64,000 bases of DNA from Chlorobium sp. GTDB lineage: Bacteria; Bacteroidota; Chlorobiia; Chlorobiales; Chlorobiaceae. The position numbers were made by a program, and so were the translations under genes. How positions within the stretch are numbered: the first letter of the stretch is position 1; every line of letters starts with the position of its first letter. Shown here piece by piece: positions 37,755 through 57,479 of the stretch. The DNA is taken from contig SZXW01000010.1 in the NCBI GenBank assembly GCA_005862285.1, positions 744,001-808,000 on the forward strand, written 5' to 3'. The notes under the pieces are model-generated. The model saw nothing but the letters and a program-made list of their open reading frames with translations, was not told the origin of the DNA and made no database searches.

Positions 37755-37912
37755 TTATGCAATCCTGATTTAGCGATGATAACGGGCAGGGTGGGGAAAC
37801 CTGCGGTGATTTCTTCAATGCCGGATTATAAAGTAAAGTTATTTTTTCATGAAAGTAAAAAAAGATAAAAAATAATTACATCATCAAAGTAATAATGCTG
37901 AAATATTTATTT

Positions 37913-37955
37913 TAAAATGCTCTATATTATTATAATTAATACATATAGCATTTTA
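37913..37955. promoter_or_regulatory. Imperfect inverted repeat upstream of the export operon
   Basis: TAAAATGCTCTATAT at 37913-37927 is mirrored by ATATAGCATTTTA at 37943-37955 in the 424-base AT-rich gap between the divergent Wzi and SLBB genes. It could be an operator. The rest of the gap holds no ORF. Confidence 0.35.
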
Positions 37956-38178
37956 TGAGAATTACTTGATGAATTTGAATTCCTTTTTTTTTTTGTTAAT
38001 ATATATGCTTTGATTTGAGTTATACTTCTGATTTTATACGCTTGCAGTACAACTTGAACAATGCTTCCAGTTAAAAGCACCTATAGGTTCAGACAGGAAT
38101 TGATGAAAATCCGTTAGTCTGGCTTGAAAGGTATTATCAATAATCATTTCAGGTTTTTAACTTTATTATCGTTCAGCA

Positions 38179-38733
38179 ATGAAAATCTTTCTGAGAAAAC
38201 TCGTCGTATTTTTCATGCTGGTCTCGGGCATATCCACTTCGATGCTTTCAGCTACCGCATATGCTGCTACTCGGGGGGGGGGCTCGCCGGAACAGGCGCT
38301 GGCGGTTCCTGACGGATCATCGGTGAGCGGGCAGCCCGCACCCGGATACACCCTCAGTGAAAAAAGCTATTTCACCGACAACTACGGCAACGTGCTCATG
38401 TATATCAATGTCTGGGGAGCGTTTGGCAAGACCGGAAGGTTTGCGGTTCCACAGGACACCGATATCACCACAATGCTGTCGATTGTAGGGGGGCCGAACG
38501 ATAAAGCCAGTCTCAAGAAAATGATTGTATATCGTCATGAGCCCGATGAGTTCGGCAAGCAGCTCTATGTGATCAATCTTGACAAAATGCTGAAAGACGG
38601 GGATACGACAGATTTCATTGAACTTCGTCCAAACGATACCATTATCATGCCTTCAAAATCGACTGCTAATCTGGCATCATTAATCGGTACGGCATCGTCA
38701 ATAGGGTCGCTGATATATATTTTATCGCATTGA
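38179..38733 (+). CDS. SLBB-domain polysaccharide export protein with G10 tract
   Basis: A 184-residue secreted protein. The signal peptide ends at AYA-A near residue 33. After a short Gly/Pro region, an SLBB (soluble ligand-binding beta-grasp) domain reads GNVLMYINVWGAFGKTGRFA, then DTDITTMLSIVGGP, like the ligand domains of Wza-type export proteins. A C-terminal hydrophobic stretch follows. The Poly_export N-domain of full Wza is missing, so it is an accessory or reduced form. Codons 32-36 cross ten consecutive G. The wzc gene follows after 35 bases. Confidence 0.8.
   Translation: MKIFLRKLVVFFMLVSGISTSMLSATAYAATRGGGSPEQALAVPDGSSVSGQPAPGYTLSEKSYFTDNYGNVLMYINVWGAFGKTGRFAVPQDTDITTMLSIVGGPNDKASLKKMIVYRHEPDEFGKQLYVINLDKMLKDGDTTDFIELRPNDTIIMPSKSTANLASLIGTASSIGSLIYILSH
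38273..38282 (+). repeat. Homopolymer G10 tract
   Basis: Ten consecutive G just after the predicted signal-peptide cleavage site of the SLBB protein. Addition or loss of one base would shift the frame and remove the mature protein. Such tracts are typical substrates for slipped-strand mispairing. Confidence 0.9.
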
Positions 38734-38768
38734 TTATTATATTCTACGTTTAAAATTTCATAAAAGTT

Positions 38769-41078
38769 ATGCAACAAGATTTTGCATTTAGCACAAAAAT
38801 AAATTATAGACAACTATTCAGAGTTCTCTGGAACTTCAAATATTTTATTGCCGTTGTTTTTTTTGTAACTCTATTTGATGCATATCTAAAAACCATATCT
38901 ACTCCTCCGAGCTATAGAGCAACATCAACTGTGGTTATAGCATTTCCAGAAAAAAAATATTTAGATTTTGGGAATGAAGGAAATGATTATAACAGTAATA
39001 GATTAACAAATGAAATACAGATTATTCAGTCAAGATCTCTTGCAGAGGAAGTTATAAAAACTTTGAGCGTCAATGCAAAAAATAATACACTGGAACTCTT
39101 TGGCAAAAGAAGATACAGGACTACTCTCGAAAAATTGTTACATTCCGAGGTTATTGGAAATCCTTTAGATACTCTTCGTCTAACTGACACTCAGGTGCAG
39201 GAATATGCTGAATCATTGAGGGGCAGGATCAGTGTGAAAAAAATACCTGATACGGATTTTCTTGAAATATCGGTATCGAGCCCTTTTGCTGACGAAGCCG
39301 CGTATCTTGCCAATACGGTGTGCAATGTTTACAAAAAACGCGATATCCAGAAGAGCGCAAACCAGGCTATTTCGGCACAGCAGTATATCAAGCAGGAACT
39401 CGACCAGCAGCGAAGCGAGCTCGCTAAAAGCGAGGAAAATGTCATAGCTTATGCCCGTGCCAATAAAATCTACGGGGTTGACAGTACGGCTTCCGGTGTA
39501 TTGTCCAAGCTGATCGATGCCGAATCGCAATACCTCAATACCAAAACCGAATATAATATAGCTAAGAGTCGGCAGGACTATCTTCTGAACAAGCTTTCTT
39601 CATCGGATCAGGCTGTGAGCTCACGCATTTCGGATAACATGAAAAGCCGTTCGTCCCAGCTTCAGGCTCAACTGCGCAATGATGAGCGCGATCTTGTTTC
39701 CCTGACTTCCCAGCTTGGTGCTGACGATCCGCAAGTTATTGAGAAAAAGAAAGAAATTGTCCAATTGAAGCAGCAGATGGCGGACCTGTCACGCCGTGAC
39801 ATTGCAGCCGGGATGTCCATTGCGAACAGGACAAAGCAGTATCAGTTCGGTTATATCGGCCAGCAACTCCAGAACGATGCGAAACTTGCCGATCTCGAAT
39901 ATACGGCGGCTCAATATCAACAACTGAAAAACACATATGAGAAACAGTTGAGCCAGCTTCCCGAAAAGCAGCTTGGATATGCGCGTCTATTGAGGGATCA
40001 GGCTGTTCTGAACAGAAATTATACCTTCCTGAAGCAGAAATATCAGGAGGCAGGTATGGCTGTTGCATCACAGGTCGGAAAAGTAACAATTATAGATCCA
40101 GCAAGCATTCCTGGAGGTTCAGAATCACCAAATATGTTGAACAATCTCATAAGGGGAGCGCTTACCGGTCTTTTATCCGGAATTGTCTTATCCTTTGTTA
40201 TTAACTTGCTTGACACGGCTATTCATGAAAGTGACTATATCACTGATAAAGGTTTTGTAATTTTATCGAGAATCCCTTGGATCGGTAAAGACAAGATTAA
40301 TTTTGTCCCTGATATTATAAAAAATATTTTCAGTTCGGTTCTCAATAATCATAATTTAATTAAATCGAAACAAAGTAATGACGCACTGTGGATAAGCGAT
40401 AGGCTTTCTTCTACGTTTGCGGAATCTTTCCGTGACCTGCGCACTGCAATTACATTTTCTCAGTCTGATAAAGTAATTCGGTCTTTGCTTATAACAAGCA
40501 GTGAACCAGGTGATGGTAAAACAACAACATGCAGCAACCTCGCTTATGCTTATGCATTGATCGGAAAAAAAGTACTTGTTGTAGATTGTGATCTTCGTCG
40601 CCCTTCTCAACATATTATGTTTTCTATAAAAAGGTCTCCTGGACTAAGCGACTATCTTGCCGGTCAGGTACAGAGTTTAAATTCAATCATTAATAAATCA
40701 TCAAAAATTGAGAATCTTTTCGTTTTACCATCAGGGCAGATAACTTTGCACCCTCAAGAACTTCTTGAATCAAAGAAAATGGCTGATCTAGTGTTGGAAC
40801 TTGAAAATTCTTTTGATATTGTTTTGCTTGACAGTCCTCCTTTTGAATTTATAAGTGATGCATTATTGCTTTCGCAATCGGTTGATGGTGTGATTATTGT
40901 AGCTAAAACAGGAAAAACATCAAAATCCGCTTTAAAGAAACTTGAATCTCTTGATTACATTAAACCCGCTATTCTGGGTTTTGCCTTGATCGAAAAAAGT
41001 ACTTCTTTACATTATGGTTTATATGGTAAATACGGAAAAAATGGCTTATATTATGATAACCTGTCAGACATTGGGTAA
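38769..41078 (+). CDS. wzc: Wzc-type polysaccharide co-polymerase and tyrosine autokinase
   Basis: A 769-residue inner-membrane protein controlling length and export of surface polysaccharide. An N-terminal Wzz domain with a helix at about 22-40 is followed by a long coiled coil (about 190-430) and a second helix near 460-480. The BY-kinase domain has Walker A SSEPGDGKTTT (near 577), Walker A' VLVVDCDLRRPSQ and Walker B VLLDSPP. The C-terminus has a tyrosine cluster (YGLYGKYGKNGLYYDN), the usual autophosphorylation site. It forms an operon with the SLBB protein. Confidence 0.93.
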   Translation: MQQDFAFSTKINYRQLFRVLWNFKYFIAVVFFVTLFDAYLKTISTPPSYRATSTVVIAFPEKKYLDFGNEGNDYNSNRLTNEIQIIQSRSLAEEVIKTLSVNAKNNTLELFGKRRYRTTLEKLLHSEVIGNPLDTLRLTDTQVQEYAESLRGRISVKKIPDTDFLEISVSSPFADEAAYLANTVCNVYKKRDIQKSANQAISAQQYIKQELDQQRSELAKSEENVIAYARANKIYGVDSTASGVLSKLIDAESQYLNTKTEYNIAKSRQDYLLNKLSSSDQAVSSRISDNMKSRSSQLQAQLRNDERDLVSLTSQLGADDPQVIEKKKEIVQLKQQMADLSRRDIAAGMSIANRTKQYQFGYIGQQLQNDAKLADLEYTAAQYQQLKNTYEKQLSQLPEKQLGYARLLRDQAVLNRNYTFLKQKYQEAGMAVASQVGKVTIIDPASIPGGSESPNMLNNLIRGALTGLLSGIVLSFVINLLDTAIHESDYITDKGFVILSRIPWIGKDKINFVPDIIKNIFSSVLNNHNLIKSKQSNDALWISDRLSSTFAESFRDLRTAITFSQSDKVIRSLLITSSEPGDGKTTTCSNLAYAYALIGKKVLVVDCDLRRPSQHIMFSIKRSPGLSDYLAGQVQSLNSIINKSSKIENLFVLPSGQITLHPQELLESKKMADLVLELENSFDIVLLDSPPFEFISDALLLSQSVDGVIIVAKTGKTSKSALKKLESLDYIKPAILGFALIEKSTSLHYGLYGKYGKNGLYYDNLSDIG

Positions 41079-41207: not shown

Positions 41208-41230
41208 ATTGATTTTAGAACGTTTTTTTG

Positions 41231-43069
41231 ATGATAAAAACGGTAAGAATACTGTTTAAAAAAATAGCTGAAAAAGGACGTGTTCTTTCAAGCCTTGACA
41301 AAGCAGTTATGCTGGTCTGGCAAAGCAGCCGACTATGGATGCCTGCAGGTATTCTTCTAACAATTATTCAGGGAGCTTTGCCGCTTGCTCAGCTTTATCT
41401 GATAAAAAAAATATTTGACTTTCTATCTGTAACAGGCTTTCAGGGAACTGCGGCTGAAAAATGGGCGTATATTATTCAATATATTGCCTTATCAGCGTTT
41501 ATCGCTCTTATAGAAATTCTACTCAGGACAATAACATCAATAGTTGAGAATCATCAAGCGGAAGAGGTCTCAGCTTATGTGACGGAGATTCTCCATGCAA
41601 AATCGATCGAAGCCGATCTGGAGTATTACGAAAATCCCTCCTTTTTTAATGCGCTCCATCGTGCACAGCAATCGGCGCCATATCGCCCGATGATCATTGT
41701 TCGTGGGATTATGGGGATATCTCAAAATATCATTACCCTTTTTGCGCTTGGCGGATTGTTTATCATGTTTCATTGGGCGCTTGTTCTGGGACTCTTTCTG
41801 TCAGTAATTCCCGGTTTTCTGGTAAGGATGTTTTTTTCTGAAAAACTTTTTCAGCAGTACCAACGACTAACTGAGGAGGAACGGAAAATGAGCTATCTGA
41901 ACTGGTTGTTGACAGGAGACTTGCATGCCAAAGAACTTCGGTTGTTGAATACGGGAAGTTATTTTAAAAAAAGATATGCTTCGCTTAGAGCCAGTATAAA
42001 AAAAGAGAAGCTCACTTTTTCTGTCAGACAATCATGGGGTGATTTTACAGGCCAGGTACCTGCAGTTATGGCTGTTTTTATTTTTCTTTCATTTATGATA
42101 CGGTATGCCATACAGGGTTTGCTGACAATAGGATCGGTTGTTATGTATTATCAAGCATTCCAGAGGAGTCAGGCTGCAATGAAGGATCTGCTCAGTTCCT
42201 TTGCTGTTTTGTATGAAAATACTCTATTTCTTTCAGATTTTTATTCGTTTCTTGAGATGAAATCTGGTATAAGCGAACCGGAAGATCCAGTACCATTCCC
42301 TTCACCTATAAATACAGGCATTTCTTTCGAGAATGTAAGTTTTTCTTATCCCGGCATAAAAAAGCCTGTACTTGAGAACATCACCTTCAGCATAAGACCA
42401 GGAGAACATATTGCTCTTGTGGGCGATAACGGGGCAGGTAAGACAACTCTGATAAAGCTGCTTTGTCGTCTCTATGATCCCGTTGCAGGAAGCATCAGTA
42501 TTGACGGGTTTAATATCCGCTCTTTCACTATTGCTGTTTTAAGACGAAATATCAGTGTGTTGTTTCAGGATTATATGAAATACAATGCAACAGTGCGTGA
42601 AAATATATGGTTTGGCAATATAGACTTTCCGCAAAACCATGACTGTCTTGAACAAGCAGCTTCACTTTCAGGAGCTGACAAAGTCGTTGAAACTCTTTCC
42701 GAAGGCTATGAGACGCAACTTGGAAAGATGTTTAATGAAGGGCAGGAACTAAGTATTGGCCAGTGGCAGAAAATATCACTCGCAAGGACTTTTTTCAGGG
42801 ATGCCCCCATTGTTATTCTTGATGAACCTACCAGTTCGCTCGATGTTAAAACTGAATATGAAATTGTTCAGCGTTTTCATCAACTGATGAAAGGTAAAAT
42901 GGCTGTGATTATCAGCCACAGGTTCTCAACTGTGAAAATGGCAGACCGGATTATGGTACTTGAAGGAGGAAAGATTGTTGAAAGCGGATCACATGATGAA
43001 CTCATGAAAATTGATGGTGTTTATGCTAAAATGTTTTCAATGCAGTCAGAAAACTATATCACAACTTAG
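41231..43069 (+). CDS. Peptide-type ABC exporter (fused permease and ATPase)
   Basis: A 612-residue half-transporter with an N-terminal six-helix domain (about 30-330) and an ATPase domain. Walker A is GDNGAGKTT near 397, the signature is in SIGQWQKISLARTFFRDAP (the consensus LSGGQ is changed to LSIGQ), and Walker B is IVILDEPTSSLD. No C39 leader peptidase is present. Similar exporters accompany lantibiotic and lasso peptide clusters. It converges on the Scm cassette across a shared terminator, so it is a good candidate exporter for the modified peptide, with leader removal left to another protease. The ATG at 41231 is preferred over TTG 41228. Confidence 0.9.
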   Translation: MIKTVRILFKKIAEKGRVLSSLDKAVMLVWQSSRLWMPAGILLTIIQGALPLAQLYLIKKIFDFLSVTGFQGTAAEKWAYIIQYIALSAFIALIEILLRTITSIVENHQAEEVSAYVTEILHAKSIEADLEYYENPSFFNALHRAQQSAPYRPMIIVRGIMGISQNIITLFALGGLFIMFHWALVLGLFLSVIPGFLVRMFFSEKLFQQYQRLTEEERKMSYLNWLLTGDLHAKELRLLNTGSYFKKRYASLRASIKKEKLTFSVRQSWGDFTGQVPAVMAVFIFLSFMIRYAIQGLLTIGSVVMYYQAFQRSQAAMKDLLSSFAVLYENTLFLSDFYSFLEMKSGISEPEDPVPFPSPINTGISFENVSFSYPGIKKPVLENITFSIRPGEHIALVGDNGAGKTTLIKLLCRLYDPVAGSISIDGFNIRSFTIAVLRRNISVLFQDYMKYNATVRENIWFGNIDFPQNHDCLEQAASLSGADKVVETLSEGYETQLGKMFNEGQELSIGQWQKISLARTFFRDAPIVILDEPTSSLDVKTEYEIVQRFHQLMKGKMAVIISHRFSTVKMADRIMVLEGGKIVESGSHDELMKIDGVYAKMFSMQSENYITT

Positions 43070-43092
43070 CTGTTGAGCTGTGATATAGTTTT
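43050..43092. terminator. Bidirectional 14-bp hairpin terminator
   Basis: AAAACTATATCACA and TGTGATATAGTTTT pair perfectly over 14 bp, with a 15-base loop that includes the exporter stop codon. It serves both the exporter (plus) and the peptidase-ended Scm operon (minus). Confidence 0.85.
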
Positions 43093-43190
43093 GAAAAATC
43101 AGCATGAGGTACAATATGATGTTATGGATTCTCAGAAACAATTCATGATAGTGATGTTTTAATCTTTTTTTAAATACAGCCAATTTTCCG

Positions 43191-43772
43191 TTAAATGATT
43201 TCAGGATCGATGAATAGTTTATAAGGTCTGATAATCTGCCATTCATCCATTCCCGGCCTTAACCTGCCAATAATACGGGAGCCAAAATGTATCTGATATT
43301 CAACTCCTCCTCCTTTGTTAAAGGAATATACACGAGGTTTTAGCCTTTCCGGTAAAAGGCTGTGAATCAAGCCATTAGCGGAGAGTAAGCGATATGGCCA
43401 GCCGAAGAATCTGGATAGCCAAATCCAAAAATTTTTGCGTATATGCATGGTACGATGTAATACCATACCTCTGATACCCCCATAAACCTTTCTTTTCCGC
43501 TTCACACGACAAGCGGAAACAACTTTTCCAATGACCATTTCAGGAGTTACAGATATATCATCAGGATAGCTGCTATTGTCTCCCTGAGTGATATAACCTT
43601 CAGATACTAAACCTACAATCCGGTGAACGACATGAGTGCCACTGTTGTTGAGAAAGACAATTACATCTCCTTCTTTGAGATGTTGACTAGCATTTGTCTC
43701 AACCAGCAGTCGATCAGGTACTCGGAATAATGGGAGCATACTTGTCCCGTGATAATCATACCACTGCTGCAT
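43191..43772 (-). CDS. S24/S26-type signal-peptidase-like protein of the Scm cassette
   Basis: A 193-residue protein whose first half is an S26/S24 peptidase core. It has GTSMLPLFRVPDRLLVE with the catalytic Ser, GDVIVFLNNSGTHVVHRIVG and the ITQGDNSSYPDD segment typical of type I signal peptidases. The expected Lys position is not clear from sequence. No strong N-terminal anchor is seen. The start at 43772 overlaps the ScmC-like gene by 17 bases; a longer start at 43844 would overlap more. Such proteins accompany lasso and Scm clusters and may cut the precursor leader. Confidence 0.82.
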   Translation of the reverse strand: MQQWYDYHGTSMLPLFRVPDRLLVETNASQHLKEGDVIVFLNNSGTHVVHRIVGLVSEGYITQGDNSSYPDDISVTPEMVIGKVVSACRVKRKRKVYGGIRGMVLHRTMHIRKNFWIWLSRFFGWPYRLLSANGLIHSLLPERLKPRVYSFNKGGGVEYQIHFGSRIIGRLRPGMDEWQIIRPYKLFIDPEII

Positions 43773-44673
43773 CTGCACTAACCTCTTTTGTTGCAATGTC
43801 CATATATTTCCAGAATTGGCCATGTAAAGATACTGAAAGTTCATAAAATGGCACTATTCGAGCAAGTCGTTGTGCATTGTTGAACACAAATGTATTCAAC
43901 AGACGCGTTTTTACAGTACTTTTACTGAAGGCAAACATAAGATTTTTCCAGTGTTCACCAGCTGACTTGTTCAACATGATTGTTTTTTCTGCATAGCCCT
44001 CGACAGATTTTAATCGGTTTTCAGATGCCTGCTTTAGAAAAAAAATTCCCTGAAGCGGTATCCCTGTCGAACATGACCAGGACTTTGCTTTTTTATGGTT
44101 TTCAATTATTTGGCTCCATGTCGGCATTGGATACACAAAATACTGGTTTTTATCAAATACTATCAGGCACATATCATCGCAAAGGCTGGTCCATCCATCT
44201 TGCAAATTTCTGCTGCAGGTAGACTTGCCAGCACCGCTACTGCCCGCAAGCAGCCAAGCCTTTCCGTATTTCATTGCAGCAGCGGCATGTAATACAAGTC
44301 CCCCATTTTCTACAATCGCAATATAAATTGGAAAAAGTATATACGATATATTGTAAATATCGATAACATAATCGATGTTGTGAAGAACTTCAGCAAATAC
44401 CCGGCCATCCTGCCTAAACGTAAGCGCTACGGTACCATAATCTATGCGCCATCCACCGTCAGATAAAACCTGCATACAACCGATAGCTTCATTATCGATG
44501 ATGGGCAAGGTTCTTTTTGTACAGTGAATGGTTCTTGCATTTATGATACTGTTATGATGTACAGGCAATTCCATGATATTGGCAATGAAGTCAAGCCATT
44601 CCTGTAGTTCTGGAACGCATGACAATATCCAGCTCTGGCTCTTTCCAAAAGAAAGAAAATATGAACTACGCAT
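43756..44673 (-). CDS. scmC: HPr-kinase-like protein, ScmC paralog 2
   Basis: A 305-residue protein whose core resembles HPr kinase/phosphorylase. The P-loop is GSSGAGKST near residue 142, preceded by LHAAAAMKYGKAWLLA and followed by the conserved SLCDDMCLIV acidic motif. The N-terminal 130 residues are unlike HPr kinase, and the protein matches the arrangement of ScmC of the SynChlorMet cassette as I remember it. Its paralog lies directly upstream on the same strand (153-base gap). HPr-kinase-like proteins in RiPP clusters may phosphorylate the precursor or a partner, which is not established here. Confidence 0.8.
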   Translation of the reverse strand: MRSSYFLSFGKSQSWILSCVPELQEWLDFIANIMELPVHHNSIINARTIHCTKRTLPIIDNEAIGCMQVLSDGGWRIDYGTVALTFRQDGRVFAEVLHNIDYVIDIYNISYILFPIYIAIVENGGLVLHAAAAMKYGKAWLLAGSSGAGKSTCSRNLQDGWTSLCDDMCLIVFDKNQYFVYPMPTWSQIIENHKKAKSWSCSTGIPLQGIFFLKQASENRLKSVEGYAEKTIMLNKSAGEHWKNLMFAFSKSTVKTRLLNTFVFNNAQRLARIVPFYELSVSLHGQFWKYMDIATKEVSADAAVV

Positions 44674-44826
44674 GTATAAGTGCTTAAAGAGCTTGGATGA
44701 TATTATTGCAAACCGTCACAAAAAAAATATAGGTATTCTGAATTAATAAATAGACTTTACGATGATTAATAAAAAAGTTACCCGGAGATATTGAAATAAA
44801 CTGCTAAAAAATATTCTGATTTTATG

Positions 44827-45738
44827 TTAAATTATTCCAGCTATTTTTTCCAGAAGTTCTTGTATATTGTTGCAATAAGATGGATTAATCCGGTATACCG
44901 GAATTTGACGGGCGAGATAATCTGTGTTGTTTAGCATTATCCCGTTTATATTTTTTCTTGCTATACCATCATAAATTTGGTAATACCGAATACATTTTGC
45001 TAAAGCGGCATAATACAGGGAAAGCGTCGAAAGGGCGCTATTCATACTGCTAATATTACTGTCATTCCCTTTTTCGAGGTACAAAATGCCGCAAAGAGGA
45101 AAACCATGTGTTGTAGTACAGGCTCGAATCGAATTGCCGTTATTGATGAATTCATTCCAGCTCGGCAGAGGCCAGGCAGAGAAGCCATCTGAGGAGTTCT
45201 TTACAATCAGGCATTCGTCATCGCATAAACTTTTCCATTTGCCATGCAGTTGATTGCTGCAAGTAGTCTTTCCACTGCCGCTTTTGCCTGCGATCAGCCA
45301 GGCTTTTCCTTCATGTTCGGCAAGGGCGGCATGCATCAGTAAACCTCCTTCCGAAATGATCTGGTTGTGTAAAGGATAAAGCAGGTAAGGCATCGCTTCG
45401 ATGCTGAATCCTTGTGTTTTGGAGCCGATACCTTCCTTGCAGATAATCGCATCGATGTCTCTGTTGTTGTAAAAGATCAGTTTTACAGCAGGAAATTGTA
45501 TTATACTATGAATGTTATGAGTGCCAACGTTTGTTGAAAGTGTTTTTCTGTCATATCCATATCTGTCTTCCGTCAGGCATCGTAACAATGGCAACTTTTG
45601 ATCATTGGATTTCTGAAGCTCCATGATTCGGCAGAACTGCTGAAGCCACGATTCAAGTTCTGGTACTGCTTGCAGCTGCCATCCGCAACTGCCGGACAAT
45701 GAAAGGCGATAAGAGTTTTCAACCGCAAGCTGTTTCAT
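44827..45738 (-). CDS. scmC: HPr-kinase-like protein, ScmC paralog 1
   Basis: A 303-residue protein. The P-loop GKSGSGKTT lies near residue 149, preceded by GGLLMHAALAEHEGKAWLIA, with the acidic motif SLCDDECLIV following. It shares the layout of the downstream paralog (N-terminal LSCVPELQEWL-like segment, here LQAVPELESWLQQF, then the kinase core). The pair arose by duplication, and both retain the nucleotide-binding residues. It starts 8 bases after the PqqD-like gene, so it belongs to the same operon. Role as for the paralog; two copies could act on different targets or as a heterodimer. Confidence 0.82.
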   Translation of the reverse strand: MKQLAVENSYRLSLSGSCGWQLQAVPELESWLQQFCRIMELQKSNDQKLPLLRCLTEDRYGYDRKTLSTNVGTHNIHSIIQFPAVKLIFYNNRDIDAIICKEGIGSKTQGFSIEAMPYLLYPLHNQIISEGGLLMHAALAEHEGKAWLIAGKSGSGKTTCSNQLHGKWKSLCDDECLIVKNSSDGFSAWPLPSWNEFINNGNSIRACTTTHGFPLCGILYLEKGNDSNISSMNSALSTLSLYYAALAKCIRYYQIYDGIARKNINGIMLNNTDYLARQIPVYRINPSYCNNIQELLEKIAGII

Positions 45739-45746
45739 TTTTTAAA

Positions 45747-46019
45747 CTAAACCGGGTAACCGGCGTAGCCCTTTTCAATCAGCGAATCGATAAAAGTGTT
45801 GATAAAGGTTTCAGCATCAGGAGGCATATTTACACATACAGGTGCAAGTTCTTCGGCAATTTCTGCTGTTGAATGTTTGCCATCGAGTCGTTTGACTATA
45901 AATACGCCAACAGGGTTCAGAGCGAATGCATCTCCTGAATCAGGATCGAACAGAACTGCCCAGTCGTCAAACTCCTCACGGAGAACAAGATCCGGGTTCA
46001 ATATGGATGTGTATTTCAT
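45747..46019 (-). CDS. scmD: PqqD-like peptide chaperone (ScmD)
   Basis: A 90-residue PqqD-family protein, the recognition element that binds the leader of a ribosomally made peptide and hands it to a radical SAM enzyme. Its pattern is REEFDDWAVLFDPDSGDAFALNPVGVFIVKRLDG, followed by two helices and an end of SLIEKGY. It lies directly between the precursor gene (53-base gap) and the first ScmC paralog (8-base gap). ScmD is the name used for the PqqD-like member of the SynChlorMet cassette. Confidence 0.85.
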   Translation of the reverse strand: MKYTSILNPDLVLREEFDDWAVLFDPDSGDAFALNPVGVFIVKRLDGKHSTAEIAEELAPVCVNMPPDAETFINTFIDSLIEKGYAGYPV

Positions 46020-46072
46020 TTTAAATTTATGATCGATTGCATTTTACAAAGTTCCGGACATATTTATCTGTA

Positions 46073-46354
46073 TCAAGTAGGTATTGAGCCAGAGATGCAT
46101 GATCCTGGATGTGCACCATTGGTACAGGTATTCCCTCCGGCACGTGTTCCTGTTTGACAACCATCAGAATTTGCATTTGTTGCATTGATGCCTGGATTAC
46201 ATAGTTTACCATTTTTTCCGCCCCATGTTGCATATCCGCCCTCTCCGCAAGTGGACGCTGCAGTGGTGCCCTTAGCGCAGTTTGCTCCTTTGGTACTTTT
46301 CCGGTCGATTGTGATTAATTCGGGTTTTTCCCAACTTATGGTATTTGATTGCAT
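46073..46354 (-). CDS. Candidate RiPP precursor with six C-x-x-G units
   Basis: A 93-residue peptide with an AAGGAG ribosome site. The leader (1-23) contains WEKPELITIDR, the KPEL form common in precursors handled by PqqD-like domains. The rest is Gly/Asn/Thr-rich with cysteines at 26, 36, 52, 66, 77 and 86. Each of the six is in the pattern C-x-x-G (CAKG, CGEG, CNPG, CQTG, CTNG, CISG). No hydrophobic segment is present. Gene order (two radical SAM enzymes before it, PqqD after it) supports a substrate role. Thioether or ether-type crosslinks at the cysteines are likely but inferred. Confidence 0.8.
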   Translation of the reverse strand: MQSNTISWEKPELITIDRKSTKGANCAKGTTAASTCGEGGYATWGGKNGKLCNPGINATNANSDGCQTGTRAGGNTCTNGAHPGSCISGSIPT

Positions 46355-46369
46355 GTTTTATTCTCCTTG

Positions 46370-47581
46370 TTAAAAAGTTGAATTGATTGTTGATTCCAAC
46401 GGTGTAAGACGTGATTCAGGAAAAAGACCCGCCTCGAACGCGCTCTTGCAGAACCAGAAAGGAGCCCAGAGATTTCTGGTGGCATAATAATTCTGAGCGA
46501 TACAGCTTCCAAGGCAGTGGGATTTGAATATACAACGTTCACAGACACCTTCAAGCTTTACCGGCATACCTTCCCTTATATTCTTCAAAACGGGATTGTT
46601 CTGCCAGACGTCTGAAAATCGGTTGGTAGCGGCATGACCAAACACAAATTCTTTAATATTGTCACCTATACCGCATAACGCATAGGAGCCATCAGCAAGA
46701 ACTCCAAGAATAGACATGATGCCACAAGTTGAAATACCTTCTTTTTTACCGAATATTCTGCCAAGTGGACGGAAAGCGACTGGGTGATCGTAATAGAGTT
46801 TAATACTGGTTGAAGGGGCTATGTTGTTTTCCACTACTGCCCCAAGTTCGATAAGTTCCCTCACATTGAGACTCTCACCGTTTTCATGAATTGCTTTACC
46901 TCGTTCTGTAGGCTGCAGCATATTGAATTTTACCGATCCGGCGCCCAGTTCCTCTGCGAGTCTTACGAGGGATTCGATCTGTGATACATTCCGGCGCATG
47001 ACGGTCATAATGATTTGGGGGTTTATGCCGGATTGTACAAGGTTACGGATACCTCGTACAGCTTTTGGAAAAGCTCCCTTTACCCCTCGGATCGTTTCAT
47101 GGGTTAGGGCATCTGCGCCGTCGAGGCTCACTGCGATAGAGAGTTGGTTACTGCACTCTTTGAGCTTAAGAGCTAATTCAGGTGTGCACAGAACACCATT
47201 GGTTTCAACCGTCAATTCGAGACATTCTTCTCTGATATAGTCGAGTATGGTATTGATTTCAGGGTGAAGAAACGGTTCCCCGCCGGTAAGCTTTACTCCT
47301 TTTAGTCCGAATTCTTTGGCTTGCCGAACAATTGAACGGAATAGTTCAGGATCGAGCACAGGCTGTGTCTTTCCGTTTTCATCATGAGGAGGAGCAAGCC
47401 AGCAATGGCTGCAACGCATATTGCATCCTCTTGTAAGATAAAAATAAATTTTCCTTATAGGGTAACGATCTATCGTATCTGAGTGTGTCAATGGTTTGTA
47501 TGGTTGTTTATTGCCGTAAGCAAATGATCTGTTTGTGTTTTGGAAAACGAACCACCGTTTGCCAGAAAGCGCTTTATGCAA
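46370..47581 (-). CDS. scmF: Radical SAM/SPASM peptide maturase (ScmF-like)
   Basis: A 403-residue radical SAM enzyme. IYFYLTRGCNMRCSHCW gives the iron-sulfur ligands at 53, 57 and 60, and GVKLTGGEPFLHP follows as the SAM-binding GGE. The C-terminal SPASM region has CGIMSILGVLADGSYALCG, CERCIFKSHCLGSC and a last Cys in WFCKSAF for auxiliary clusters. It would modify the precursor encoded 15 bases downstream. The annotated ATG overlaps the upstream gene by 94 bases; a TTG at about 47491, overlapping the upstream stop, is an alternative start. ScmE/ScmF naming is from memory. Confidence 0.85.
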   Translation of the reverse strand: MHKALSGKRWFVFQNTNRSFAYGNKQPYKPLTHSDTIDRYPIRKIYFYLTRGCNMRCSHCWLAPPHDENGKTQPVLDPELFRSIVRQAKEFGLKGVKLTGGEPFLHPEINTILDYIREECLELTVETNGVLCTPELALKLKECSNQLSIAVSLDGADALTHETIRGVKGAFPKAVRGIRNLVQSGINPQIIMTVMRRNVSQIESLVRLAEELGAGSVKFNMLQPTERGKAIHENGESLNVRELIELGAVVENNIAPSTSIKLYYDHPVAFRPLGRIFGKKEGISTCGIMSILGVLADGSYALCGIGDNIKEFVFGHAATNRFSDVWQNNPVLKNIREGMPVKLEGVCERCIFKSHCLGSCIAQNYYATRNLWAPFWFCKSAFEAGLFPESRLTPLESTINSTF

Positions 47582-48621
47582 CCACTCGGGCTTGGATGAT
47601 CGATAACACCGAAAGAAGTAAAAGCGAGTGCAGGACAGTTACCCGTACAGAAATTGATGTATTCGCAACCTTCACACCAAGAGAAATTGGACAGAGGTAT
47701 CCTGTTTCTTTTCCTCATTGCCTCCATTGTTGGATGGGTCTGCCAGATTTCTGTAAGGTCATCGAGGTTGATCCTTCCAAGCTCGATCTGGCTCAGCATG
47801 GTGCATGGTACAATGGTGCCATCTGCCCGTACGGCAATTTTATTGAAAATACAGCCACAGGCGGTCAGGTAGCCCCCGCCAGGCAGAGATGTTTCTCCGA
47901 GAAGCCTTGCTGATTCTATTTTTGCAAATCTGTCAGCTTCAGCAAGGGGACCGGCCTGTGCAGTAATTCTTCCCGGGTATTTTTGCTGGAGAGATAATAT
48001 AACAGCGATGGCTTTTGTTCGATTTTCCGTTGAAAGTTGAATATCCTCGGTATGGCTTCTGCAGAGCCCCATATAACTCGCATCGTTTGTGGAGAATGAA
48101 GGAAGGCCCAGATCTTCAAGCAGGTATGTTGCAATTTTTTCAAGGTCGTCAACATTGCCTCTGAATATAGTAACACGAACCGATACCGGCACCCCATGAT
48201 TTTGAAGGTTTTGAATTCCTTCTACAGCTTTGAAAAAATTACCCTCTCCTCGCAAAAGTTTGTGTGTATGATCACCGGAGCCGTCAATGGAAACCTGAAC
48301 ATAATCACACCGTTTGGTATTTTTGAGGAAAGACGCATAATCAGGAGTGATCAGAGTTCCGTTACTTAGTATTGAAAACCGCATTCGGTTAAGCACTATT
48401 CCATTTATGATATCTCTGAAATCCTCCCGGATAAAAGGTTCTCCTCCGGCAATGTTAATGCTCATTACAGCGCACCGGTTCAATTCTTCAAAAAATTTTA
48501 ACCACTCTTCGGTGCCTAATTCATAAGCTGTTTCGGCCGTGCTTGTATAATAATAGCAATGTTTACACCGAAGGTTACACCGGTTGGTGATGTCGATATC
48601 GACGCTTTTTGGTGTTTTCAT
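47488..48621 (-). CDS. scmE: Radical SAM/SPASM peptide maturase (ScmE-like)
   Basis: About 377 residues beginning MKTPKSVDIDITNRCNLRCK, with the iron-sulfur cysteines at 15, 19 and 22 and SAM-binding NIAGGEPF. The SPASM part has CGCIFNKIAVRADGTIVPC, CEGCEYINFCTGNC and a final Cys near IKRF. It is the first gene of the minus-strand Scm operon. Starts at ATG 48630 and TTG 48642 are also possible. Two distinct SPASM enzymes acting on one precursor suggests two kinds of modification or an enzyme pair. Confidence 0.85.
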   Translation of the reverse strand: MKTPKSVDIDITNRCNLRCKHCYYYTSTAETAYELGTEEWLKFFEELNRCAVMSINIAGGEPFIREDFRDIINGIVLNRMRFSILSNGTLITPDYASFLKNTKRCDYVQVSIDGSGDHTHKLLRGEGNFFKAVEGIQNLQNHGVPVSVRVTIFRGNVDDLEKIATYLLEDLGLPSFSTNDASYMGLCRSHTEDIQLSTENRTKAIAVILSLQQKYPGRITAQAGPLAEADRFAKIESARLLGETSLPGGGYLTACGCIFNKIAVRADGTIVPCTMLSQIELGRINLDDLTEIWQTHPTMEAMRKRNRIPLSNFSWCEGCEYINFCTGNCPALAFTSFGVIDHPSPSGCIKRFLANGGSFSKTQTDHLLTAINNHTNH

Positions 48622-48642
48622 GATGAGCATAACCGCAGACAA

Positions 48643-49416
48643 ACTTTTAAATACAAGAGTATTATTTGAATAATATAAGACGAAAAAGACGTCGTTTCAA
48701 AAAACCGATATCCTTCTTTATATTAAGCACTTAAAAAAGAAATGAAGTTTTATTTAAATGTAATCGTGTTATAATGAGCGTAATATTGTTTTGAAATAGT
48801 CGATATACTGGACGTGCCATTGTTGGCAGTTGCAAAAAAAAGTGTTTTTATTTCAAAAATAAAAAGTTGTGAATCAATTCCAGAAGTCTTTATTGATACG
48901 CTATTAACACTTTACCCTTGCATTCTATCATCATCAGAAGTACCTTATGCTTGAAAATATTATTAAATTTACGCTTATTATTACAAATAGTTCAAAGATT
49001 GTGAATTATTTTCATAAAATGTCAAGTGATAATGCCACTGATTAAGTTCAAGAATGGGCTGATATACCAAGAAAAACAAGGAACCATTTCTGTTACCGAC
49101 CAAAAGTAGTCGAAGAGTTAGAATTACTTATGGTAAGTATTATCCAAGATGACAATATACTTTTCTGAAATTATTTTTTGACATACCGTTTTACATTACT
49201 TCATGACAAGGTATGTAAAAATACTAATATAATACGCTTTTAGAGCTTTGTTAAATCCTGTAATTTCTTTTTTCTGTTTGATTCAGACATACATTTATAG
49301 AGAGTATCAGGATATATGGTTTTAAAAAAAAGGTTGCCTTTTTTGAAATAGATGTTTTTTCGGTTGGCTATATTATATGTGTCCTTTTTACCTGTAACAA
49401 TTAAAAAGTAATTATT
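48643..49416. other. 774-base AT-rich divergent intergenic region
   Basis: It separates the minus-strand Scm operon from the plus-strand secreted-protein genes. No protein-like ORF and no strong hairpin were seen. It must carry promoters for both directions. Part around 49040-49110 looks like decayed coding sequence but could not be assigned. Confidence 0.5.
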
Positions 49417-50199
49417 ATGAAAAAATTTAAAAAAGTATGTTCATTCCTTGGAACTGCGGGATTACTGATAGCAGGCAGCCTTGATGCAAAAGCATCCGAC
49501 TCTTTTTTTCCTAATATACATGGAAAATCGTTGACAACCCCGGTGGCTTGGGGCAATGCCTATGGAACCATCTACGCCGGCGCTTCATTAACGACACCTT
49601 CACCTTACCTTGACAACGAGACTGATGGAGCTTATGCGGTTGGACTTGGTATTGGTAACCCTCATGAAAATCTGGGATTGCAAGCTACGGTTTTAGTTCT
49701 TAATATTGATCAGTTCAACCGTTTTGCCATGAATGTTCATGCTTTTCGTTGTTTTGGAGACGCCTCCGCGATTGGTGTAGGTGTTGAAAATATACGCCTT
49801 GATAATGCAACGAATGATTCTGATAAAAGTTATTACGTTGTGTACAGCCATTGCGTCGATGGTGATTCATTAGTCAACCCGGCAACAGGACGGTCGAAAC
49901 TGCATTTCAGTATCGGAGCTGGGTCAGGAAGGTTCGGAGATAAAAGCGAATTTGATATCGCCAGTGGGAAGGGAGAGCATGGTACATATGTTTTTGGTAA
50001 CGTGGCATATGAACTTTTCAACGAGTTTAATATTATTTCTGACTGGAACGGCTTAAACCTCAATGCAGGCATTTCGAAAACATTTCTGCTTGGCAATAAC
50101 GTGCCTTTTGTTGTTACTCTTGGTGCAGCTGATCTAACCAGAAATTCGGGAGATGGCGTACGGTTTATTGCAAGTATTGGAACAGGATTTACGCTTTAA
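49417..50199 (+). CDS. Predicted outer-membrane beta-barrel protein
   Basis: A 260-residue secreted protein. The signal peptide starts MKKFKK and is probably cleaved after DAKA near residue 26. The mature part is a series of amphipathic strands rich in Gly, Asn and Phe (for example YGTIYAGASLTTPSPYL and GTYVFGNVAYELFNEF) and ends GTGFTL, as small barrels do. I do not recognise a named family. It starts the plus-strand unit opposite the Scm operon, with a Pro-rich secreted protein 29 bases after it. Confidence 0.65.
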   Translation: MKKFKKVCSFLGTAGLLIAGSLDAKASDSFFPNIHGKSLTTPVAWGNAYGTIYAGASLTTPSPYLDNETDGAYAVGLGIGNPHENLGLQATVLVLNIDQFNRFAMNVHAFRCFGDASAIGVGVENIRLDNATNDSDKSYYVVYSHCVDGDSLVNPATGRSKLHFSIGAGSGRFGDKSEFDIASGKGEHGTYVFGNVAYELFNEFNIISDWNGLNLNAGISKTFLLGNNVPFVVTLGAADLTRNSGDGVRFIASIGTGFTL

Positions 50200-50228
50200 T
50201 TTGATAAAAATTTAAATATTATATGGTT

Positions 50229-50516
50229 ATGAAAAAGCAATACATTTTTCTGACATTGACTATTGGAGCTTTGGTACCTTTCTTGTCAACATCAGTATTT
50301 GCTGCAATGAATGGCAATATGTCAGATGCTACACAAGCCGGTCAAATCAATGTTTCAACTATTAATATTACTAATTTTCAACAGGCAACTACACCAACTC
50401 CAGTAACAGTTCCTGAACAAGCACCTGCGCCTCCACCGGCTGTCCAAGTCCAAGAACCTCAGACTCCTGCACCCATACAAGAGCCAAAGCTTGAGCCAAA
50501 AAATGCGAGACATTAA
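50229..50516 (+). CDS. Small secreted Pro/Gln-rich protein
   Basis: A 95-residue protein. The signal peptide (MKKQYIFLTLTIGALVPF) is cleaved probably after VFA near residue 26. A short Asn/Thr-rich part follows, then a long Pro/Ala/Gln/Glu-rich tail ending KPNARH-like (EPKNARH). No fold is expected for the tail, which could span the periplasm or bind the wall. No family is recognised. It is probably co-transcribed with the barrel protein upstream. Confidence 0.6.
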   Translation: MKKQYIFLTLTIGALVPFLSTSVFAAMNGNMSDATQAGQINVSTINITNFQQATTPTPVTVPEQAPAPPPAVQVQEPQTPAPIQEPKLEPKNARH

Positions 50517-50526
50517 TGGTTATTAT

Positions 50527-50566
50527 TATGCAGTACTGCAAATTCCTTTTTTTGTGGTACTGCATA
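50527..50566 (+). terminator. 10-bp hairpin after the Pro-rich protein gene
   Basis: TATGCAGTAC and GTACTGCATA pair perfectly, with a 20-base T-rich loop, 11 bases after the stop. AGTTTT follows. It may be a terminator or a processing site. Confidence 0.5.
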
Positions 50567-50682
50567 GTTTTATAAATTGGATGATTATCAATTTCTTGTG
50601 AAATAGCTTTTCTATTATTGAAAATTATGTTTATGATTCAAATAGTATTTACCGGAAATTAAGTACAATATTTTCGTCCATT

Positions 50683-51399
50683 ATGAATATTAGCAGCGGA
50701 TTATATTTATGTTACAGAGCCAAAAACATACTTTTAGTGTTTTTGTTTCTTTTTTGCAGCACTTATGCATTCGGCTCAGAAATATCCTCTTTTGATTATT
50801 TGTCTTCAAAATCAGATGCATCTGAAGAAGTCCGATATACATTATCGTGGATATTGGATTCCGCTGATAATGATAATTTGCCATTTGCCGTTATAGACAA
50901 GAAAAATGCTGAAATATTTGTTTTCAACAACGACGGAAAATTTTTAGTATCAGAACCTGTTTTAATAGGTATTTCAAAATCTGACATAATTGATCCAAAA
51001 ACTCTTAATGCGAGCTTGTCAGCTATTTCAGAAGCAAAAAGAGTTACACCTGCAGGTCGATTTATTTCAATGATAGGTTCAGATAAGCATGGTAAACAGC
51101 TTCTCTGGGTTGATTATGAGTTTGCTATAGCACTTCATCCTGTTATAGATGTGCCAGGACAGGACAGAAGAAGGAGGTTAATCACTAAAACGTGTCAGGA
51201 CAAACGGATTACATGGGGATGTATCAATGTTTCACCTGCACTCTTTCAAAATGTTATCATTCCTTTATTTCAAAAAAAAGGAATTGTTTATATTCTTCCT
51301 GAAGAAATTTCAATTGAAAATTATATTCGAAAAGTATCTGAACCGAAAATCAGCAATCAGCAGGATACAGCTCGTGGTATAAGGAAAAATCCTGGATAA
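50683..51399 (+). CDS. L,D-transpeptidase-like (YkuD) secreted protein
   Basis: A 238-residue protein with a signal peptide (about 13-32, AFGS). The YkuD-type catalytic region has His near 152 in ALHPVID and Cys at 180 in ITWGCINVSPALF. The usual S/T-H-G-C is changed to T-W-G-C, so the His before Gly-Cys is lost. Such enzymes crosslink or anchor proteins to peptidoglycan. It lies between secreted proteins and the nucleotidyltransferase gene, near the Scm cassette. Activity is uncertain because of the substitution. Confidence 0.72.
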   Translation: MNISSGLYLCYRAKNILLVFLFLFCSTYAFGSEISSFDYLSSKSDASEEVRYTLSWILDSADNDNLPFAVIDKKNAEIFVFNNDGKFLVSEPVLIGISKSDIIDPKTLNASLSAISEAKRVTPAGRFISMIGSDKHGKQLLWVDYEFAIALHPVIDVPGQDRRRRLITKTCQDKRITWGCINVSPALFQNVIIPLFQKKGIVYILPEEISIENYIRKVSEPKISNQQDTARGIRKNPG

Positions 51400-51491
51400 G
51401 TTATTTACATTAGATTATAAAAAGTAACTTTTTTGTGTGAATATTTCTGAAAATTTTTGTGGTTATTTGAGATTTTGTGTTCTGTTTGATA

Positions 51492-52790
51492 ATGAATAGA
51501 ATGAAGATGAGTGAAGATTTTCAGGAAACCTTTCCTTTAAAAGAGCCTTCCCTTTCCATAAATCTGCTGCTTTTGTTGCTTCGTGATAATCTTGACGTTT
51601 CGGAAACTGCTTTTATATGTAAATCTACTTCTTCAAATGAACTTGAGGAGGTTGTTACGTTTGCATTTAATCAGGGAGTGCCGACACTATTTTATAGCAT
51701 TCTCAAAGAGAAAGGGCTTCTTGGGTTTTTCCCCGCTTGTTCAATTAGTGAATTGCAAGCACGTTATATCAATTATACAATATTATATACCCGTTTATAC
51801 TACGATTTTGGACGCGTTGTCAGAATACTTCAGGAAGATGGGATAGACGTGCTTGTATTAAAGGGACTTCATCTGGTACCGGTCCTTTTTAAGAATCCAG
51901 CAAGAAGGGAAATAGGAGATATCGATCTGCTCATACGCAGGAAAGATATTGTTCGTGCTTGTTCATTGTTAATCAAGGAAGGATTCGGCTCACCTGACTA
52001 TTATCCAAGTGACGAAACTTGCGACTGGGTTCATCAGCTAAAGCCACTTGTTAACTCAAGAGGTAGTGTAGTAGAACTGCATTGGACATTATCAATGTAT
52101 GGTCCAGGAAAACCGATGTCTATTGATCTTGATGAATTATGGAACAGATCCGAAAAATTTCAGTTCAACAATTTTACAGCTCGTGTTTTAAGTCCTGAAG
52201 ATTTGCTGCTACATCTGGTTGTTCATGTCACGATTGTTCATCATTTTGATGTCCGAATTAAAGGATTATATGATATTCATGCAGTTGTAGTTCATTATAG
52301 TTCAAAAATAAACTGGTCAGAACTACTGGTGCGTGCTGAAGAATGGAACGTTCAAAAATGCATTATCCTTACTTTGGGACTTGCAAATAAACTTTTTAAA
52401 ACCCCGGTACCTGAATCGATACTATTACGTACGGAAAAACCGGAATTTAGTGAAATGATGAAGCTGGCTTTTAAGATTATTGACTCTGAATGTTATGGAG
52501 ATAATTTGAAATCAATGCCATTGATGCAAATATTGAAAACAAAAAGCATTATTTCTGCTTTATCATTGATTTCGAAGAAATTATTTTATCCGACAGCCTT
52601 TATAGCTTCAATGTACGATCTATCACCCAATACCCCTATTCTGAAACTTTATGCGTTCAGAGCTAAAAATATGATATCAATTTTTATAAATAATATAAGG
52701 CAAATGGCTGTTGCAAAAAAGTCTGGCAAAAAAGAAGTATTCGAATATGAGCGTCAAGTCGATCATATAATGGATTTTTTAAAAAAATGA
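51492..52790 (+). CDS. NTP_transf_5-type nucleotidyltransferase family protein
   Basis: About 432 residues. The nucleotidyltransferase signature appears as DVLVLKGLHL, then NPARREIGDIDLLIRR (paired acidic residues of the active site, near 143-150), then a third acidic strand in VVELHWTL. The long C-terminal half is helical, with a polybasic end. This family often lies beside HPr-kinase-like, PqqD-like and ABC genes in lasso and other RiPP clusters, and in exopolysaccharide/exosortase loci. That makes a link to the Scm cassette likely. The substrate is unknown. Starts at GTG 51477, ATG 51501 or 51507 are alternatives. Confidence 0.8.
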   Translation: MNRMKMSEDFQETFPLKEPSLSINLLLLLLRDNLDVSETAFICKSTSSNELEEVVTFAFNQGVPTLFYSILKEKGLLGFFPACSISELQARYINYTILYTRLYYDFGRVVRILQEDGIDVLVLKGLHLVPVLFKNPARREIGDIDLLIRRKDIVRACSLLIKEGFGSPDYYPSDETCDWVHQLKPLVNSRGSVVELHWTLSMYGPGKPMSIDLDELWNRSEKFQFNNFTARVLSPEDLLLHLVVHVTIVHHFDVRIKGLYDIHAVVVHYSSKINWSELLVRAEEWNVQKCIILTLGLANKLFKTPVPESILLRTEKPEFSEMMKLAFKIIDSECYGDNLKSMPLMQILKTKSIISALSLISKKLFYPTAFIASMYDLSPNTPILKLYAFRAKNMISIFINNIRQMAVAKKSGKKEVFEYERQVDHIMDFLKK

Positions 52791-53130: not shown

Positions 53131-53985
53131 GTGAGTTCTGAAAAATGGGATGTTATTATTGAGCCGCAGAGCTCTCTTTTCATGCTTGATCTAAAAGAGG
53201 TGTGGCGGTACCGTGATCTGCTTGAAATGTTTGTCAGAAGGGATATTGTCACTTTTTACAAACAGACTATACTCGGCCCGCTATGGTACTTCATTCAGCC
53301 TCTCTTTACCACTGTTATGTTCATGTTCATTTTTGGCGGCCTGGCCGGAATTTCGACAGACGGCTTGCCTCAGGCACTTTTTTACATGTCCGGAGTGTTA
53401 TGCTGGAATTACTTTGCAGATTGTCTGAACAGAACATCAGAAACCTTCACGGCTAACCAGCATATATTCGGCAAGGTGTACTTTCCCCGGCTTGTTGTGC
53501 CCCTGTCTATTACCGTTTCAAATCTTGTTAAAATGTGTATACAGGCGCTTTTGTTTATAGCTATATACCTCTATTTTGTTGTCAAAGGATCGAATGCTTC
53601 ACCGAACTTACATGCTCTGCTTTTTCCAGTCCTCCTATTTATTCTTGCCGGCTTGGGGCTTGGCTTTGGCCTTTTGATCTCGGCAATGACAACCAAGTAC
53701 CGCGATTTGAAATTTCTGGTCCAGTTCGGTGTTCAGCTCTGGATGTATGCTACACCGGTGATCTATCCGCTTTCGATCATGAAGCGGAACTACCCGCAAT
53801 ATCTTTTTCTGTTGGTGCTGAATCCAATGACTGCCGTTATCGAAACTTTCAGGTACGGTTTTCTCGGACAAGGTACGTTCAGCTGGGCATATCTTTTTTA
53901 CAGTTTTGCATTTACTGTTGTGCTTCTTCTTGCTGGAACGGCTACGTTCAACAAGGTTGAAAAGAGCGTGATGGACGTCGTGTGA
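53131..53985 (+). CDS. wzm: ABC-2 polysaccharide export permease (Wzm-like)
   Basis: A 284-residue permease of the ABC-2 type used to export O-antigen or capsule. After a cytosolic start comes RDLLEMFVRRDIVTFYKQT (the conserved amphipathic segment), then TILGPLWYFIQPLF, six hydrophobic helices and the late LNPMTAVIETFRYGFLG. Translation starts at GTG 53131. The cognate ATPase Wzt follows after 41 bases. The base composition is like the host genome, unlike the genes from 54.7 kb on. Confidence 0.92.
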   Translation: MSSEKWDVIIEPQSSLFMLDLKEVWRYRDLLEMFVRRDIVTFYKQTILGPLWYFIQPLFTTVMFMFIFGGLAGISTDGLPQALFYMSGVLCWNYFADCLNRTSETFTANQHIFGKVYFPRLVVPLSITVSNLVKMCIQALLFIAIYLYFVVKGSNASPNLHALLFPVLLFILAGLGLGFGLLISAMTTKYRDLKFLVQFGVQLWMYATPVIYPLSIMKRNYPQYLFLLVLNPMTAVIETFRYGFLGQGTFSWAYLFYSFAFTVVLLLAGTATFNKVEKSVMDVV

Positions 53986-54026
53986 AGTGATGGGTTGACA
54001 TATTCAAAGTTTGTTAGAGCATTACC

Positions 54027-55283: not shown

Positions 55284-55285
55284 AT

Positions 55286-56227
55286 ATGAATTATGTTGAT
55301 AAATATAAAGAAATAAATTCAAGTTTTAAAAAAACTTTTGTTTTTAATTTTGGATCAGAAGCTGGATTTTTTTCTGAATATAATAATATGGTTCTTGCGA
55401 TATTATATTGTTTGGTTAATAAAATAAAATTTGTTTTATATTCTGATAACTCAAAATTTAAATATAATAAAGGCTGGACTGATTATTTTAAATCATTTTG
55501 TGATGAAGTCAATGATGGGTTTCATGAAAAATATAACTTAAGACAAGTTGAGCCTTATAATATCATGTCTTTAAAAGGAAAAATAAAAAAGGTTTTTATA
55601 GATGTATACAAGTATTTAAAAAAATATGATTATTTGACATATGATTTGTGGAATGAATTTCATAATAATAATATGAAAAATAATATTTATTCAATTCCTA
55701 ATTTATTTATAAATGATAATTTACAAAATGCTTGTTCAAAGTTAATTAAAATGACATGGAGATATAATGATGATGTTTTATTATTTATAAATAAAACGAA
55801 AAAAGAAATTAAATTACATGGGGATTATATAGGTTTTCATATTCGAACAGGTGATAAATATATGGAGTCAAATATTTTATTGGTTTCAGAGTATATAAAT
55901 AAGTCCGAGAAAATAAGTAATATTAAAAAGGCATTTGTTTTATGTGATGATTATAACGTTTTTATTGATTTAATAAATAGGCATAAAGAATGGAGTTTTT
56001 ATACTTTATGTCGTCTTAGTGAGGAAGGCTATGTCCATAATGATTTTGTTAAACTTGATAAAGAAATAAGAAAAGAAAGATTATTGAGACTTTTTGCATC
56101 AATGGATATTTTAAATGAAGCAAAATATTTTATAGGGACTTATAGTTCTAATCCCGGAATGTTTATGGGAATGAGAAGTCCAGAAAAAACATATGGAATT
56201 GATTATGATAAATGGCTTATATGGTAA
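55286..56227 (+). CDS. Putative fucosyltransferase-like glycosyltransferase
   Basis: A 313-residue protein from the AT-rich block. GFHIRTGDKY near residue 185 matches the H-x-R-x-G/T-D donor-binding motif of alpha-1,6/alpha-1,2 and protein-O-fucosyltransferase relatives. A second conserved region reads YFIGTYSSNPGMFMGM, typical of the C-terminal donor-site motif. The start at 55286 has an AAGGGAG ribosome site. The donor is probably GDP-linked, which is inference. It follows wzt by 2 bases. Confidence 0.68.
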   Translation: MNYVDKYKEINSSFKKTFVFNFGSEAGFFSEYNNMVLAILYCLVNKIKFVLYSDNSKFKYNKGWTDYFKSFCDEVNDGFHEKYNLRQVEPYNIMSLKGKIKKVFIDVYKYLKKYDYLTYDLWNEFHNNNMKNNIYSIPNLFINDNLQNACSKLIKMTWRYNDDVLLFINKTKKEIKLHGDYIGFHIRTGDKYMESNILLVSEYINKSEKISNIKKAFVLCDDYNVFIDLINRHKEWSFYTLCRLSEEGYVHNDFVKLDKEIRKERLLRLFASMDILNEAKYFIGTYSSNPGMFMGMRSPEKTYGIDYDKWLIW

Positions 56228-56243
56228 AATAAATAATAAAAAT

Positions 56244-57239: not shown

Positions 57240-57479
57240 ATTGATTGATCTTTTTTATGCTGTACATTTCAGCCGATAAAAAACGGCAATTACCCATGAT
57301 TTATTACCGATTTATAATCCCAATCGTACTATAGCCAGTAAAAAAGCCGACATGGCAGCTTTTTCAGTGTGTTCAGATGGCAGTATTACTCTCTTTGCCT
57401 AAGACAGGACGCATTGACCCCATAATTTTCGGCTGCATAAGAAGTACATTCATGCTTGCTAACAGAATTGAGGCAAACA

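Follow-up and report, generated by a model that had tools for sequence, protein, structure and literature searches.

A 64,000-nucleotide stretch of DNA from the green sulfur bacterium Chlorobium sp. (contig SZXW01000010.1, positions 744,001 to 808,000; hereafter the window) carries a SynChlorMet (Scm) gene cassette. We consider it likely that this cassette is a gene cluster for a ribosomally synthesized and post-translationally modified peptide (RiPP), that it includes two genes outside the span first reported (43191-48642), and that its products act in a pathway leading from the PqqD-like protein ScmD to an ATP-binding cassette (ABC) exporter. Family membership, a conserved neighbourhood, gene fusions, intact active sites and the architecture of the precursor are established here, and we infer from them a radical S-adenosylmethionine (SAM)-modified, phosphorylated and probably sugar-decorated exported peptide, together with the chemistry, step order and cleavage site that follow.

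It is proposed that ScmD would bind the leader motif WEKPEL of the precursor ScmA and present the peptide, and that the two radical SAM enzymes ScmE and ScmF would act on the C-x-x-G units of its core; a Cys-dependent thioether is our guess for the bond they would make. One or both of the HPr-kinase-like ScmC proteins would phosphorylate Ser or Thr within these units, and a PF14907 nucleotidyltransferase would attach a sugar or nucleotide to the phosphate. A soluble S26-type peptidase would cleave after a small-x-G motif just ahead of the first Cys, and the ABC exporter would release the finished product.

The cassette type was named earlier from genome scans and is defined by NCBIfam models TIGR04248-TIGR04252; its product is undescribed, and no mention of the cassette or its product was found in the literature searched. 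The locus is a member of this catalogued, uncharacterised type, with an anatomy that is now better defined and a pathway that can be tested. The comparison made here adds the probable exporter, a candidate enzyme for attaching a sugar or nucleotide, the repeats that build up the precursor and a probable cleavage site.

The seven minus-strand open reading frames (ORFs) that a preliminary description of this DNA placed at 43191-48642 are all present there. The SynChlorMet name and the ScmC to ScmF assignments that it gave are upheld by the profile search that it suggested: ScmE, ScmF, ScmD and both copies of ScmC score above the curated cut-offs (400, 400, 100 and 125 bits, respectively), and ScmA falls below its own (35 bits). 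That description had named two findings that would speak against the cassette, a match of the radical SAM proteins to sulfatase maturases and a small ORF that is not conserved. Neither was made; sulfatase maturases are not the best match of either enzyme, and small Cys-rich ORFs of this type are conserved beside the radical SAM genes in relatives. Its statement that the block has all core parts missed the exporter and the nucleotidyltransferase.

Conserved neighbourhood of ScmF

Two plus-strand genes flank the block: an MsbA-like ABC protein (41228..43069; Pfam ABC_tran and ABC_membrane), proposed as the exporter, in which no C39 peptidase domain was found with Pfam, and the PF14907 nucleotidyltransferase (51477..52790; Pfam 169 bits), proposed as a second tailoring enzyme. 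A survey of other genomes, also suggested at the outset, used profiles built from the window proteins to search near ScmF in 84 loci, and recovered ScmD in 71, ScmC in 67, the S26 peptidase in 60, the ABC protein in 48 and the nucleotidyltransferase in 45. Among the 27 loci flanked on each side by 7 kb or more, the numbers are 27 for ScmE, 26 for ScmD, 25 for ScmC, 23 for S26 and 19 each for the ABC protein and the nucleotidyltransferase. The last three are usual neighbours of ScmF in relatives, and the cassette reaches past 43191-48642 to take in the two flanking genes as conserved members. Many relatives have all genes running one way, typically in the order D-E-F-A-C-S26 followed by exporter and nucleotidyltransferase. 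Fusions join S26 to ScmC in eight loci, S26 to the nucleotidyltransferase in two and ScmD to ScmE in two.

ScmF above cut-off occurs in four of 394 genomes of the phylum, every one in the genus of the window. A wider scan, in which each prokaryotic species was represented by a single genome, found 186 relatives, of which the best 80 were placed; these fall into 17 named phyla and unplaced candidate groups, archaea among them, and include Thermodesulfobacteriota, Myxococcota, Omnitrophota, Nitrospirota, Lentisphaerota, Chloroflexota and methanogenic archaea, the phyla being NCBI ranks of metagenome-assembled genomes of which single placements may be wrong. A free ScmF tree set the window apart from other Chlorobi; the claim of a separate acquisition was dropped because constraining all Chlorobi together gave a better likelihood (approximately unbiased test, p 0.849).

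Precursor, proposed maturation enzymes and proposed leader peptidase

Gene scmA (46073..46354, minus strand) encodes a 93-residue peptide with a leader WEKPELITID..TKG followed by six C-x-x-G units, a number reached in none of 20,000 shuffles of the core. It is preceded by AAGGAG, the sole strong ribosome-binding site in the block at the listed starts, and no second ScmA was found elsewhere in the genome by profile. A lasso-like leader motif, [YW]xxPxL, recurs in about 70 ScmA-like precursors, as do a small-x-G motif shortly ahead of the first Cys and a core of C-x-x-G units, whose most frequent spacing is ten residues. In 53 of 68 precursors no more than three residues separate the small-x-G motif from the first Cys, as compared with 9.6% at other leader positions. 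Fourteen precursors entered the set on account of their repeats, which therefore do not count as independent evidence in these peptides; the small-x-G motif played no part in assembling the set. Long precursors with about a dozen C-x-x-G-like units occur in loci L042 (4320-4649), L089 (2515-2988) and L102 (6324-7269) beside a divergent ScmC/ScmD pair, and possibly represent a sister subtype.

Of the two radical SAM/SPASM enzymes, ScmE (47488..48642, minus strand; TIGR04250, 599 bits) has the CX3CX2C motif (C22, C26 and C29) and the SPASM cysteines, which are kept in 99-100% of 72 relatives, and the SPASM cysteines of ScmF (46370..47581, minus strand; TIGR04251, 557.6 bits) are present in all of 83 relatives. 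The 94-base overlap of the two genes in the preliminary description rests on a TTG far upstream in scmF and is probably a start-site artefact, because the alignment of relatives and the TTGA junction favour TTG 47491 over 47581 as the likely true start, which would shorten the overlap to the four bases TTGA at the scmE stop. ScmD (45747..46019, minus strand; TIGR04248, 114.7 bits; PF05402) is the proposed leader-binding protein, or RiPP recognition element.

It might be argued that these proteins make an intracellular, peptide-derived redox cofactor of the pyrroloquinoline quinone (PQQ) or mycofactocin kind instead of an exported peptide, given that ScmD, ScmE and ScmF resemble PqqD, PqqE and mycofactocin enzymes at the family level and that the hosts are mostly from anaerobic lineages. 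However, the cores differ greatly in sequence and in their number of repeats (2 to 15 Cys), loci L070, L056 and L046 hold four, three and three precursors, respectively, and an exporter is usually present, so we regard a cofactor as improbable. The several precursors per locus suggest one maturation set serving a family of peptides.

The S26-type gene (43191..43844, minus strand), which may start at ATG 43772 instead, encodes the proposed leader peptidase; its best model is archaeal-type signal peptidase I, just above cut-off (TIGR02228, 53.3 against 51.85 bits). The residues S35, H74 and D95 are present and invariant across 46 relatives. By hydropathy, the window protein and most of its relatives have no clear transmembrane helix, and the leaders of ScmA-like precursors have no hydrophobic stretch; these features point to a soluble leader peptidase rather than to the usual Sec type of signal-peptide cleavage. 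The catalytic residues, and the small residues at -3 and -1 of the precursor site, are both consistent with a putative S26 leader peptidase; leader removal by an S26 enzyme is not known for any characterised RiPP.

Proposed phosphate and sugar tailoring

Two HPr-kinase-like ScmC proteins are encoded in the window beside a single ScmA. The more canonical copy 1 (43756..44673, minus strand; TIGR04249, 212.8 bits) has H129, K150, D166 and D167 intact, and copy 2 (44827..45738, minus strand; 171.1 bits) has H136, K157, D173 and D174; this His-Lys-Asp-Asp set is invariant in 55 relatives. HPr kinase is related to the phosphoenolpyruvate carboxykinase (PEPCK) group of P-loop kinases, and the best PDB matches of the AlphaFold model of copy 2 (predicted local distance difference test score, pLDDT, 86.9) are PEPCK-type kinase folds. 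A search of solved structures by sequence gave no useful match. The C-terminal G-x-F-W motif has been lost from copy 2, which hints at divided roles of the two kinases, and the tree gives neither copy a firm place. The duplication is not the unique twist it was first taken for, since extra ScmC genes occur elsewhere with extra precursors, as three pairs in L046 and two in L049. No second precursor reading frame exists in the 153-base gap between the kinase genes, no RNA structure beyond that of shuffles was found there, and a tblastn search of plasmids with ScmC gave no match.

In the nucleotidyltransferase, G130, R144, D148-x-D150 and D266 are intact and match the invariant residues of relatives; nucleotidyltransferase folds are the best, though weak, matches of its model (pLDDT 87.2). 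The intact sites in both kinase and nucleotidyltransferase are compatible with a putative phosphorylation and glycosylation of the lasso-peptide type. The His-Lys-Asp-Asp motif is reported to be essential in lasso-tailoring kinases, and in pseudomycoidin PsmK and PsmN phosphorylate a Ser to which hexoses are then attached (PMC9266682). Because ScmA has no conserved C-terminal Ser, the acceptor must differ if the reaction equals the lasso one, and the phosphate is probably placed on Ser or Thr inside the C-x-x-G units. Such residues occur at +4 or +5 in 231 of 337 units, and are found in one or more units of 67 of the 68 peptides.

As HPr-kinase-like proteins have regulatory functions in other systems, ScmC and the PF14907 enzyme might serve regulation or immunity, the product being made by the radical SAM steps and cleavage alone, and the strong difference between the two window copies of ScmC (about 30% identity) would suit such a role. 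The eight ScmC-S26 fusions, the presence in L046 and L049 of a separate precursor for each ScmC, and the lasso tailoring precedent (PMC9266682) speak for a biosynthetic function instead, and we think regulation or immunity unlikely.

The window cassette lies amid Wzi-, Wzc- and Wzm/Wzt-type genes, and the model of the nucleotidyltransferase bears a weak resemblance to the sugar-phosphate transferase FKRP, from which one could suppose that a phosphorylated peptide becomes attached to a polysaccharide that the surrounding capsule genes produce. However, the 105 flanking proteins of the other loci include just four glycosyltransferase-1, three glycosyltransferase-2 and two export proteins. As these are scattered glycan genes alone, a conserved link to polysaccharide genes is not supported, and surface-glycan decoration seems to us about as doubtful as the cofactor. 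The genes in question encode a Wzi-like capsule assembly protein, an export protein and a Wzc-type tyrosine autokinase (36351-41078) and, beyond the cassette, Wzm/Wzt-type ABC proteins (53131-55283), which together make up a capsule or O-antigen locus. Its Wzc is at most 37% identical, over full-length matches, to any other found in the genus, and does not inform on orthology of the locus there. The G+C content drops to 25-31% in the glycosyltransferase stretch 54000-60000, as compared with 47-56% in the opening 10 kb of the window. Two apparently exported proteins of unassigned family (49417-50199 and 50223-50516), the first without a match in the relatives' loci, are encoded between ScmE and the nucleotidyltransferase. 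An ORF at 50683-51399 contains the sequence WGCINVS, reminiscent of the active site of an L,D-transpeptidase, but has no Pfam or NCBIfam match.

Weighing the pathway and comparison with known systems

Several points weigh against the proposed RiPP pathway. No product has been seen, and the bond made by the radical SAM enzymes cannot be read from sequence. Lasso kinases target a C-terminal Ser that is absent from ScmA, and the model of the nucleotidyltransferase has only weak fold matches (best E 3e-3). Of the 27 well-flanked loci, eight lack the exporter and eight the nucleotidyltransferase, and in the window these two lie on the other strand, one of them 2.8 kb off, past apparently unrelated genes. 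ScmA itself scores under the curated cut-off (TIGR04252, 21.8 bits, E 1.7e-4); this says little, because the model is narrow, spanning 49 positions and matching just 14 of 49 ScmA-like precursors at E 0.01. The earlier suggestion that the peptide is perhaps phosphorylated and exported is strengthened by the kinase residues, the commonly co-located exporter and the lasso-like pairing, and its chemistry is putative. Taken together, the repeats and cleavage motif of the precursor, the two genes newly counted in and the parallel with lasso peptides give the cassette, in 17 or more named phyla, a defined pathway that can be tested. More tentatively, and with somewhat less than even confidence, we suggest a distinct RiPP class of mostly anaerobic lineages in bacteria and archaea, marked by C-x-x-G repeats of about ten residues, two radical SAM enzymes, a phosphate/sugar module shared with lasso peptides, and leader removal by S26.

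Like known SynChlorMet cassettes, the window has ScmC, ScmD, ScmE and ScmF above cut-off and a ScmA-like precursor in one packed block; it differs in having two ScmC for one precursor, in the order E-F-A-D-C-C-S26 in place of the common D-E-F-A-C-S26, and in the opposite strand of exporter and nucleotidyltransferase. The HprK-related kinase A and B families (TIGR04352 and TIGR04355) are likewise HPr-like P-loop kinases, but the window ScmC proteins show only weak similarity to them (31.9 and 24.9 bits), far under their 200-bit cut-off. Sactipeptide and ranthipeptide clusters also combine a radical SAM/SPASM maturase (AlbA or PapB-like) with a Cys-rich precursor, and ScmE has secondary similarity to PapB and AlbA far below the NCBIfam cut-offs of those families. 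In contrast to these clusters, the window has two different maturases, a kinase and a nucleotidyltransferase, and Cys thioether cross-links would be a putative feature of its product.

The lasso clusters of paeninodin (PadeK) and pseudomycoidin (PsmK/PsmN) share with the cassette a PqqD-type leader binder, an ABC exporter, an HPr-like His-Lys-Asp-Asp kinase, a PF14907-type nucleotidyltransferase and a leader of the [YW]xxPxL type, a lasso motif. Four plasmid matches to the nucleotidyltransferase were found. Two, in Halopiger and Paenibacillus, are accompanied in their clusters by a lasso cyclase, PqqD and a ScmC-like kinase; a third, in Deinococcus, falls in a gene annotated as B2, with PqqD and a kinase close by; and no such neighbours were detected for the fourth. 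Neither an asparagine-synthetase-like lasso cyclase nor a B2 protease is among the cassette genes scanned within 41228-52790, where two radical SAM enzymes and an S26 peptidase stand in their place, and ScmA differs from lasso precursors in its Cys-rich core of repeats and in lacking a conserved Ser at the C terminus. If the tailoring is as we propose, the same phosphate/sugar module would serve two unrelated peptide classes.

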